Shown here: positions 29,731-32,575 of the stretch, in pieces
Layout of the letters: every line of letters starts with the position of its first letter
Position numbering within the stretch: position 1 is the stretch's first letter
Source: Acidiferrobacterales bacterium
GTDB lineage: Bacteria; Pseudomonadota; Gammaproteobacteria; Acidiferrobacterales; Sulfurifustaceae
DNA: 32,785 bases
Reading direction: 5' to 3'
Assembly (NCBI GenBank): GCA_919902925.1
Contig: CAKKRZ010000006.1
Span: forward strand, 1 to 32,785
The notes under the pieces: generated by a model
Seen by the model: only the letters and a program-made list of their open reading frames with translations
Database searches by the model: none
What the model was told of the DNA's origin: nothing
Made by a program: the position numbers and the translations under genes

Positions 29731-30363
29731 TCAGCCACCGTACTCGATGAACCAGATGGCGAAGCCGAGCGCGACGATGACCGTGTCGAACAGCGTGAAC
29801 AGCCAGAGCAGCCACAGGATACGCCGGTGTGAGGGCTTCATCGGCATCCAGACGCGGCGGATGTACCAGCGCCAACCGGGTAGCCAGCAGTATCGGCGCT
29901 GGCGGACGAAATATCGCCTCAGGGCCTCACCCCAGGCGACGATGCTGCGATCGACCTCGTTCTTGCGGGATTCGCGTTCCGCCTCGCTCGGACCCTCGTA
30001 GTCATCAACCACGATCAGCTGGCTGCCGTTCGGTGTGGCCTCGATCGAGAAGAATGTCCGTTGCTTCAGTCCCTTTCGGTGGTGCAGGACAAGCACACCG
30101 TCCGGACGCATCTCGGCTGCAATATCGCCCTGATACTCGAGCTGATTGGTTTCATTGTGGAAATCCACCCGGTAGCGATCCGGCCCGGCCGCCTCCCAGC
30201 GTTTGAAAACCAGGTAGGGATTGATGCGCAGCAGGATTTCTGGGTCACTGAGGTACCGGCGCAGGGTTTCCGGCGTCTGGCGGCAGGGCACGGCGACCCA
30301 GGCGATATCCTTCGAGTCAGTTGGCAGCCGGGGAGCAGCCGGTGTCGGCGCGGTGCTGGTCAT
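29731..30363 (-). CDS. SRPBCC-like protein with C-terminal membrane anchor, function unknown
   Basis: A 210-aa protein. The first 150 or so residues look like an SRPBCC (START-like) ligand-binding fold: PCRQTPETLRRYLSDPEILLRINPYLVFKRWE, then alternating strands through YRVDFHNETNQLEYQGDIAAEM and a long amphipathic helix SEAERESRKNEVDRSIVAWGEALRRYF. A basic stretch follows, then a membrane segment (WLLWLFTLFDTVIVALGFAIWFIEYGG) at the very end, so it is probably tail-anchored. I assign the fold by pattern only and know no substrate. The start overlaps the stop of the stress-protein gene (ATGA), so the two are likely made together. It converges on ftsB with a 21-base gap. Confidence 0.8.
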   Translation of the reverse strand: MTSTAPTPAAPRLPTDSKDIAWVAVPCRQTPETLRRYLSDPEILLRINPYLVFKRWEAAGPDRYRVDFHNETNQLEYQGDIAAEMRPDGVLVLHHRKGLKQRTFFSIEATPNGSQLIVVDDYEGPSEAERESRKNEVDRSIVAWGEALRRYFVRQRRYCWLPGWRWYIRRVWMPMKPSHRRILWLLWLFTLFDTVIVALGFAIWFIEYGG

Positions 30364-30824
30364 GGTTTCGACGGCACCACCAGCAGGGGCACGGTCAGAC
30401 GCCGCAGGAGGTCATCGGTCAGCATGCGCGAACGCAGGCCGGTTTTCCCCTTGCGGCGCAGGCTGCCCGTGACGATGAGTTGTGGTTTAGCGCTGCGCAC
30501 GGCGTCCAGCAGGCAGTCGTCCGGTTTGCCGAATATCGTGCGGGAACGATATTTCAGCTTGCGCCGGCGGGCGGCGCGCTCGACCCGCCGGATTTCGCTT
30601 TGCACCTCCCGCTCCAGGGTAGTCTCAACGTGGCGGGCGAACGCGTCGCGGGTGGCGGCATTATTGAGCCAGTCATCACCCTGCATGCCAGACCAGAATT
30701 CAGGCACGACTACCAGGTGAAAGAGAGTGGCGCCGGGGGCGGCCATGCGGATGGCCGCACGCTCGGCCGCGCGCGTGCCGGGCGAGCCGTGGCTGGCCAG
30801 CAGGATTTTTTTCAGGGGTTTCAT
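30360..30824 (-). CDS. Universal stress protein (UspA)-like
   Basis: A 154-aa protein with the Usp pattern: MKPLKKILLASHGSPGTRAAERAAIRMA at the N-terminus, an LFHLVVVPEFW strand, a long charged helix, and the closing KPQLIVTGSLRRKGKTG...LTVPLLVVPSKP. The classic ATP-binding G-x2-G-x9-G(S/T) pattern is not met after VTGS, so nucleotide binding is doubtful. Usp proteins act in stress survival or as sensors beside transporters. The track ORF runs back to 31187 through unrelated frames; ATG 30824 starts the conserved domain. The start lies only about 13 bases after a strong terminator, so its transcription must come from readthrough or an unseen promoter. Confidence 0.85.
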   Translation of the reverse strand: MKPLKKILLASHGSPGTRAAERAAIRMAAPGATLFHLVVVPEFWSGMQGDDWLNNAATRDAFARHVETTLEREVQSEIRRVERAARRRKLKYRSRTIFGKPDDCLLDAVRSAKPQLIVTGSLRRKGKTGLRSRMLTDDLLRRLTVPLLVVPSKP

Positions 30825-30837
30825 ATTTTCCGGGCAT

Positions 30838-30873
30838 AAAAAACCCGGGGCCCGCCATCGGCGAACCCCGGGT
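30838..30873 (-). terminator. Rho-independent terminator after the small membrane protein gene
   Basis: Read on the minus strand: ACCCGGGG, TT, CGCC, GAT, GGCG, GG, CCCCGGGT, then a run of six T. The outer stem has eight perfect pairs, an inner stem four more, and the U-tract is immediate. This is the strongest terminator in the window. It ends the transporter and small-protein transcript and stands directly before the stress-protein gene. Confidence 0.92.
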
Positions 30874-30885
30874 CGTAGACAGCGT

Positions 30886-31014
30886 TTACTTGACGGGTAC
30901 CATCGCCAGCACGATTCCCACGATGACCAGTGAGACCAGCAGGGCCATGATGTCTTCCAGACGGTCGCTCTTGAAGATCGAGAGTGCCGTACCGCGATCG
31001 AATTTGTCTGCCAT
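30886..31014 (-). CDS. 42-aa single-pass membrane protein next to YeiH-type transporter
   Basis: This gene is not in the ORF track because of its size. It reads MADKFDRGTALSIFKSDRLE, then DIMALLVSLVIVGIVLAMVPVK and TAA. The ATG at 31014 has a strong AAGGAGA ribosome site that overlaps the end of the transporter gene; the gap is ten bases. Residues about 22-40 form one membrane helix; the N-terminal half is charged and probably cytoplasmic. The clean ribosome site, full reading frame, cotranscription with the transporter and terminator right after it all support a real gene. I do not recognise the family. By analogy with KdpF or AcrZ it could be a small transporter partner, which is inference. 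Confidence 0.85.
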   Translation of the reverse strand: MADKFDRGTALSIFKSDRLEDIMALLVSLVIVGIVLAMVPVK

Positions 31015-31024
31015 GGTTTTCTCC

Positions 31025-32575
31025 TTATCCAATCAGGTTCTTGAGCATGAGTACTGCAATCAGCGCACCGACCGCCTTGACCGTACCGACGATGGTACCG
31101 ATCACGAGCGGCTGACCGCCGGCCTGGGCGAGTGAGCGGAAGGTGATCTGCATGCCGAGGCCGGTAAGGCCGAAGGCAAAGAACCACACAATCAGGTCAC
31201 GGAACCAGGCGATACGCGGGGCCGTCTTCCAGGCGTTCTTGTTGGAGGCCTTGAGGGCTTCCTTGACGTCTTTCGGCACGCCCTTGCTCTTCTCAAGACC
31301 GCGCAACAGGATGTCGTCGGCCTTGGTGGTGGCCTTCTTGGTCTCGATCAGTCGGGCCAGTGCGGCCTTGTGATCCTCGCGCTCGATCTTCGACACGTCC
31401 ATGGTCTTGAGGGCGTCAATCTCTTTGTCGCCCAGCGCCTTGCCTTTCTCACCGACAAAGAACTTGCCCTGGTAGTGGTCAGCCGGGGCGAACACGCCGG
31501 TGGTCGATAGCAGGAACACGACAATGAAACCCAGCACGAACAGCGGGAACTTGCCGATGATGACCTGCATGACATTGACCTTCACGCCGGTCTGTTCACG
31601 CTCGACGTACCACACCGCCAGCCACATGACGATGATCGGCAGGACCAGGATGCGGGTGATGTTGAAGATTTCCGCCACCTTCAGGGTCTCGATGCCGTTC
31701 GGCTGGTAGATCAGCGCGGCGGCGGCGACCTGCGCCGAGTTCAGGATGCCGGTACCGGCCCAAGCGCCGAACTGCTCGTAGGACAGGCCGAGGGCGCGAC
31801 CGACCGGCGGGAAGATGAACATCATCAACACGCCCCACACCAGGATGGTGCCGATCGTGTAGGCAATCTCACTCGACTTGGCGTTGACCACCGGGGCGGC
31901 GGCTACCGCCGCCGATACGCCGCAGACGCCCAGGCCGGCCGACAGCACGCCGCCCATGGAGTTCGGGATCTTCTTGATGCGGCCCAGCCACAGGGTCAGA
32001 CCGACCGAGCCGAGCACGAAGAAGAAGATCAGGCCGATCGACCACTGCGAGTATTCCGCCAGCTCAGCAGCGCTGTACAGGCCGCCCAGCAGCACCACAC
32101 CGGTCTTCAGGCCGAGGCGGGAAAGACGCACACCGTTCTCTGCCCAATTCGGGACCTTAAGTACGTTGACCACGACCATGCCGACGATAATGCCCAGCAG
32201 GATGTAGTTGACGCCCAAAGTGCTGGCCCAGTTCCAGCCGATGGCCTTGCCGGAGGCGGCGCCCCATTGCTTCATGATCGGTTCGGCGCCGTACTTGACG
32301 ACGAACACGCACAGCAGGATCAGCATTACGCCGCCCACGGTGGAGAGGTAATAGTCGATGTGTCCTTGTTTGGGGGAAATGAACAGCTGCCAGAGTCCTA
32401 CCACGATGCCGATGCCGCCGAAGATATAGCCCATCGTCACCATTTCGTTGGCCAGCTTCTTGGTGTGCAGGTAATCCAGCGTACCGCCGATCGTGCCGGA
32501 TGCGACCAGCCACGCGTAGGCCGCCATGATGATGCCGATAATCAGCACCCATGGGGTTCTTTTGGTGTAGACCAT
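31025..32575 (-). CDS. YeiH/UPF0324-family putative sulfate exporter with cytoplasmic insert
   Basis: A 516-aa integral membrane protein. The track ORF starts at 32647, but ATG 32575 has AGGAGGAG eight bases upstream and begins MVYTKRTPWVLIIGIIM, so it is chosen. Roughly eleven hydrophobic segments can be seen. The region CGVSAAVAAAPVVNAKSSEIAYTIG ... LGLSYEQFGAWAGTGILNSAQVAAAALIY (about residues 218-290) is the hallmark of the conserved family often labelled putative sulfate exporter (YeiH). Usual members have about 350 residues; here an extra charged block lies at about 361-458 (KALGDKEIDALKTMDVSKIERED...) between membrane segments, and the N-terminus is also longer. The substrate has not been shown for this branch, and the sulfate label is only database custom. 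It is cotranscribed with the 42-aa protein. Confidence 0.88.
   Translation of the reverse strand: MVYTKRTPWVLIIGIIMAAYAWLVASGTIGGTLDYLHTKKLANEMVTMGYIFGGIGIVVGLWQLFISPKQGHIDYYLSTVGGVMLILLCVFVVKYGAEPIMKQWGAASGKAIGWNWASTLGVNYILLGIIVGMVVVNVLKVPNWAENGVRLSRLGLKTGVVLLGGLYSAAELAEYSQWSIGLIFFFVLGSVGLTLWLGRIKKIPNSMGGVLSAGLGVCGVSAAVAAAPVVNAKSSEIAYTIGTILVWGVLMMFIFPPVGRALGLSYEQFGAWAGTGILNSAQVAAAALIYQPNGIETLKVAEIFNITRILVLPIIVMWLAVWYVEREQTGVKVNVMQVIIGKFPLFVLGFIVVFLLSTTGVFAPADHYQGKFFVGEKGKALGDKEIDALKTMDVSKIEREDHKAALARLIETKKATTKADDILLRGLEKSKGVPKDVKEALKASNKNAWKTAPRIAWFRDLIVWFFAFGLTGLGMQITFRSLAQAGGQPLVIGTIVGTVKAVGALIAVLMLKNLIG

Follow-up and report, generated by a model that had tools for sequence, protein, structure and literature searches.

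A conserved single-helix protein encoded beside a long PF03601 transporter, a probable accessory subunit of a putative sulfite/sulfate exporter in sulfur-oxidizing Proteobacteria

Directly behind the gene for a large membrane transporter, an Acidiferrobacterales genome carries an open reading frame (ORF) for only 42 amino acids. Is this ORF a gene, and with which of its neighbors would its product work? The locus lies within the window, that is, the whole stretch of 32,785 nucleotides analyzed here (Table 1). The question has a physiological side, as the disposal of sulfite and sulfate by sulfur oxidizers that make both in the cytoplasm is poorly known, and in a recent study YeiH, to which the transporter is related, still has no more than candidate status as an exporter of sulfite (PMC11582611).

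Table 1. Positions of the cassette features in the window
Feature	Position	Strand	Basis or remark
Long PF03601 (PSE/YeiH-like) transporter	31025..32575	-	516 aa
Ribosome-binding site AAGGAG of the small gene	31021..31026	-	Overlaps transporter stop; conserved in 75/78 loci
Small membrane protein, 42 aa, one helix, putative new family	30886..31014	-	ORF and homologues
Intrinsic-terminator-like hairpin, small gene/usp interval	30842..30874	-	Position kept in 44/78 loci
Universal stress protein (Usp, PF00582), 154 aa, third cassette gene	30360..30824	-	Pfam
Predicted SRPBCC (START-like) domain with C-terminal membrane helix, 210 aa, fourth gene	29731..30363	-	Fold model

RESULTS

The small ORF is a conserved gene

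The small ORF starts 10 nt past the stop codon of the transporter, and because the junction reads TAAGGAGAAAACC-ATG, its ribosome-binding site overlaps that stop. The sequence-only reading had named recurrence of the ORF beside long transporter homologues as the check to be made on it, and this recurrence was found. GTDB holds 293 relatives of the transporter, and in 78 of the best 80 of these, drawn from the Alpha-, Beta-, and Gammaproteobacteria, a small ORF lies directly downstream on the same strand. The hosts include relatives of Beggiatoa as well as Marithrix, Thiomargarita, Sedimenticola, and Sulfuricaulis. The gap between the two genes in the 78 loci is mostly 9 to 32 nt, extending to 52 to 384 nt in several Beggiatoa-like genomes, and a strict GGAG, GAGG, or AGGA site precedes the small gene in 75 of them. 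Among 96 related genomes, 23 contain the small ORF. Over a 32-codon core, pN/pS is 0.27, with pN below pS in 99.97% of pairs, and differences per codon position amount to 0.30/0.14/0.61, a pattern absent from the other two frames. The 42-aa ORF is thus a real, conserved gene under purifying selection.

The protein is built alike across the 78 loci, with a nearly fixed motif, F-[DH]-R-G-[ST]-A-L-[ST]-I-F-x-S-D-R-x-E-D, preceding a single membrane helix that closes the protein, usually without a C-terminal tail. A looser form of this extramembrane motif is RG-[ST]-x-L-[ST]-x-F-x-x-DR-x-ED. Its R, G, L, and both D residues are invariant in 78 of 78 proteins; the invariance of the core F, R, and E is not independent, because the search pattern itself contained these residues. 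No Pfam or NCBIfam model matched the protein above its cut-off and PDB sequence searches with the protein and its profile returned no match, and we regard it as the likely founder of a new family. A link to ArsP_1 (E of 0.008, below cut-off) was rejected, as the match spans a generic helix. What the sequence-only reading described in the letters of the window, including a strong ribosome site overlapping the transporter end and one membrane helix, is correct throughout. In the N-terminal part of alphaproteobacterial versions (e.g., L084, L101, and L106), there is a further conserved stretch, SQDIDLQEEAGAKFHRGSALSIF, which the version in the window does not have.

The transporter is a long member of PF03601

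The 516-aa transporter matches PF03601 with 156 bits against a Pfam gathering cut-off of 24.5, and members of that family carry the annotation "putative sulfate exporter." Its description as YeiH-type is borne out at this level but not at that of TIGR00698 (YeiH), for which it reaches 69.6 bits against an NCBIfam curated cut-off of 232.6, in a partial alignment to model positions 30 to 267 of 335. Relative to YeiH, it has an N-terminal extension of about 110 aa and a soluble insert of about 90 aa (approximately residues 365 to 455). PDB sequence searches with the transporter and its profile gave no match, and a comparison of an only moderate model with solved structures, made with the CPA/AT-type (broken-helix) transporter fold in view, gave CitS and NhaP as the best matches (E of about 0.06, TM of about 0.2). 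No copy of the transporter was found on plasmids.

The unit usually comprises four genes

The sequence-only reading had taken the transcript to be just these two genes. This is not supported, as Usp follows the small gene in 69 of the 77 loci with enough sequence, and the SRPBCC gene follows in 65 of 74 (both within the best 80 of 293), always on the same strand and past a conserved terminator. The unit is therefore usually a larger cassette of transporter, small protein, Usp, and SRPBCC protein. The Usp of the window matches PF00582 with 50.2 bits against a gathering cut-off of 24. The cassette Usp family departs from the ATP-binding Usp motif G-x2-G-x9-G(S/T), with a consensus end GspRPkg..GlrSrm..e.l.r.L from which the final G(S/T) is missing. 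The usp stop and the start of the fourth gene share 4 nt. An AlphaFold model of its 210-aa product (pLDDT of 94) has a helix-grip domain and a long C-terminal helix, and the top Foldseek matches are SRPBCC proteins (probability of 1.0, E of 1e-5), with lachrymatory-factor synthase, TcmN, and START-type proteins among the matches. Together with weak Polyketide_cyc2 matches in 6 of 43 members, the model places the family in the SRPBCC/START-like superfamily.

Across 57 related genomes, the SRPBCC gene occurs in 22 of 22 with the long transporter versus 1 of 35 without it (p of 7e-15). The sole exception, G004 (63% complete), lacks both transporter and small gene and carries the SRPBCC gene together with a truncated usp. 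These two genes adjoin enolase/ftsB (L144:5339-6338), and the locus is apparently a deletion remnant or an assembly artefact. Just upstream of the transporter, 13 loci (L070, L084, L088, L090, L093, L096, L100, L101, L106, L110, L116, L120, and L128) carry an extracytoplasmic function (ECF) sigma factor and an anti-sigma-like protein on the same strand, which suggests dedicated regulation of the cassette there.

The strong terminator that had been noted directly after the small gene is confirmed as a hairpin of 15 pairs, 11 of them G-C, followed by a T run, with an RNA fold of -31.6 kcal/mol (z of -2.9). A hairpin occupies this interval in 44 of the 78 loci, versus about 2 in shuffled sequence. 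Given this conservation, the terminator may be leaky, and it probably acts as an attenuator that sets a high level of transporter and small protein against a low level of Usp and SRPBCC protein.

The small protein diverges together with the transporter

With Usp and SRPBCC divergence controlled for, the small protein and the transporter co-diverge with a partial r of 0.54 (permutation p of 0.001), in genes that share their ancestry. The values for the small protein with Usp and with SRPBCC are 0.11 and -0.04, and Usp and SRPBCC reach 0.59 with each other. Since the small protein follows the transporter and hardly the other two, a role as transporter subunit is favored, within the limits that shared ancestry sets. 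The proposal of a two-part transporter thus keeps its conserved, co-diverging single-helix partner and loses its restriction to two genes. We also modeled the small protein fused to the transporter by reading through the stop codon of L098, where the spacing is in frame. In this single-chain AlphaFold model, the transporter and the small helix are folded (pLDDT of about 74 to 87 for the helix), and the conserved motif and linker stay at about 29 to 41. The fusion was set aside as a docking approach, as it places the motif without confidence.

An apparently older branch and detached clusters

A second clade of transporters, about 42% identical to that of the window, measures about 400 aa and is without the 90-aa insert. 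Its gene order is transporter, small protein, and Usp, and the small protein is an 83-aa version (TLFKDDRGEDIGAIVV...) with a Pro/Ala-rich tail. As this clade carries all three genes, the trio is apparently the older core, the SRPBCC gene and the insert being peculiar to the long clade. One genome has two cassettes in tandem (L151:4097-10094), the first with a short transporter, the 83-aa protein, and Usp, and the second with the long transporter, small protein, Usp, and SRPBCC protein, with a rhodanese-like ORF between them.

Beside the six short YeiH homologues examined (about 30% identical), no small ORF with the cassette motif was found. Long and short transporter forms never coexist in the 57 genomes (22 versus 12; chance of 0.001, with kinship ignored). 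Relatives without the cassette (L046, L047, L048, and L050) have a different Cys/His-containing ORF of about 70 aa downstream of the short YeiH, starting CxxCRHW or CRHCRHF.

In both "Ca. Marithrix" genomes, a small-Usp-SRPBCC cluster lies apart from the transporter (L139, L140, L141, L146, and L147), and one of them has two such clusters, one with a damaged usp. In the phylum scan, all six long-clade small genes adjoin the transporter. Among the genomes scanned, the small gene was never found in one without the transporter.

Association with sulfur oxidation

Homologues provide the physiological context. Deletion of yeiH made Salmonella 20-fold more sensitive to sulfite (PMC12880088), and yeiH of Hyphomicrobium rose 526-fold with thiosulfate, for which sulfite export was proposed (PMC11582611). 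In a scan of 398 genomes of the phylum, aprA, used as the marker of cytoplasmic sulfite oxidation, is present in 7 of 8 genomes with the small gene versus 23 of 390 without (p of 5e-8, with kinship ignored), and dsrA is present in 5 of 8 versus 34 of 390 (p of 3e-4). Within the order, dsrA and aprA do not discriminate cassette from noncassette genomes, aprA being nearly ubiquitous there. The genome of the window has aprA; dsrA was not found in this 88% complete assembly. The simplest reading of the homologues and the aprA association is that the transporter exports sulfite and/or sulfate formed in the cytoplasm, which we word as an inference because the association ignores kinship and aprA is near-ubiquitous within the order.

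DISCUSSION

With moderate confidence, we favor the reading that the small protein serves as a single-pass accessory subunit in a regulated exporter of sulfite/sulfate in sulfur-oxidizing Proteobacteria. It would be dedicated to one PF03601 (PSE/YeiH-like) exporter clade, share one message with the transporter, bind it, and sit in the inner membrane through its C-terminal helix. The conserved N-terminal segment of about 20 residues (RGSALSIFxSDRxED) is probably at the cytoplasmic face, where it could stabilize or gate the transporter. Usp and the membrane-anchored SRPBCC protein, presumably made at a lower level by read-through past the leaky terminator, would be likely regulatory inputs, and the exporter would probably remove sulfite and/or sulfate arising from cytoplasmic sulfur oxidation. 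The detachment in "Ca. Marithrix" and the gaps of 85 to 384 nt in some Beggiatoaceae count against the subunit model. It is also conceivable, and we put this forward tentatively, that all four parts form a signal-gated exporter in which the single-pass protein couples Usp and the SRPBCC ligand-binding protein to the PSE transporter; if so, Apr-type sulfur-oxidizing Proteobacteria would have a dedicated, regulated exit for sulfite and sulfate.

Other readings differ in how they divide the cassette. The small protein could be an obligate structural subunit of a plain two-part transporter, with Usp and SRPBCC mere neighbors that have their own role and transcript. A strong terminator does separate the two halves, which co-diverge as two pairs (0.54 and 0.59), and G004 has lost both genes of one half and retains those of the other, with its usp truncated. 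However, the four-gene order is maintained over three classes, SRPBCC, G004 apart, is found only alongside the long transporter, and Marithrix and the divergent clade both keep the small gene linked to usp, so that we hold this division to be unlikely. The same linkage would fit a membrane anchor or adaptor of Usp and SRPBCC that stands behind the transporter only through operon order, as the clusters of Marithrix, two of them in one genome, have no adjoining transporter and the small gene of the divergent clade adjoins usp. This is more doubtful, given that divergence of the small protein follows that of the transporter and hardly that of Usp or SRPBCC, that G004 retains the latter two without it, and that several Thiotrichaceae-like loci have the small gene with no adjoining usp.

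Stress or toxin-like roles are common among single-helix small proteins, and an independent peptide of this kind could share the operon by chance. The near-absolute linkage across great phylogenetic depth, the presence of a transporter in every scanned genome with the small gene, and the strongly constrained soluble motif make this very improbable. Finally, an ORF this short might be noncoding, either a leader peptide or a chance ORF, but the adjacency in 78 of 80 loci and the pN/pS of 0.27 rule this out for practical purposes, in line with the codon-position pattern, the ribosome sites, and the residues invariant in 78 loci.

The accessory-subunit reading can be set beside known systems. The core domain of the transporter is homologous to that of YeiH and SuyZ (PSE family, PF03601, TC 2.A.98), and the functional literature on these homologues points to sulfite/sulfate export; the transporter of the window is longer, through its extension and insert, and scores below the TIGR00698 cut-off. 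In SbtA-SbtB, a bicarbonate transporter has a small soluble nucleotide-sensing regulator, SbtB, which is PII-like and not a Usp. SbtA may be in the same broad fold class as the cassette transporter, and the likeness would be one of function; unlike the cassette, SbtA-SbtB is not known to have a single-helix mediator or SRPBCC-membrane protein. A limited literature search found no paper that connects sulfate exporters with universal stress proteins and sulfur oxidation, and as far as this search shows, the cassette is undescribed. For many uncultured sulfur oxidizers and some cultured ones, it offers a precise, testable exporter candidate.

The closest parallels in form are AcrZ-AcrB and KdpF-KdpABC, in which, as in the cassette, a tiny single-pass protein is linked to a larger transporter. 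In contrast to AcrZ and KdpF, the cassette protein matches no Pfam family above cut-off and no PDB entry. It also differs in having its strongest conservation in an extramembrane motif of about 20 residues, and its transporter is a single-polypeptide PSE protein in a unit that adds Usp and SRPBCC. To the few transporters with single-helix subunits, the cassette may thus add a new family of small proteins and a partnership with Usp and SRPBCC proteins.
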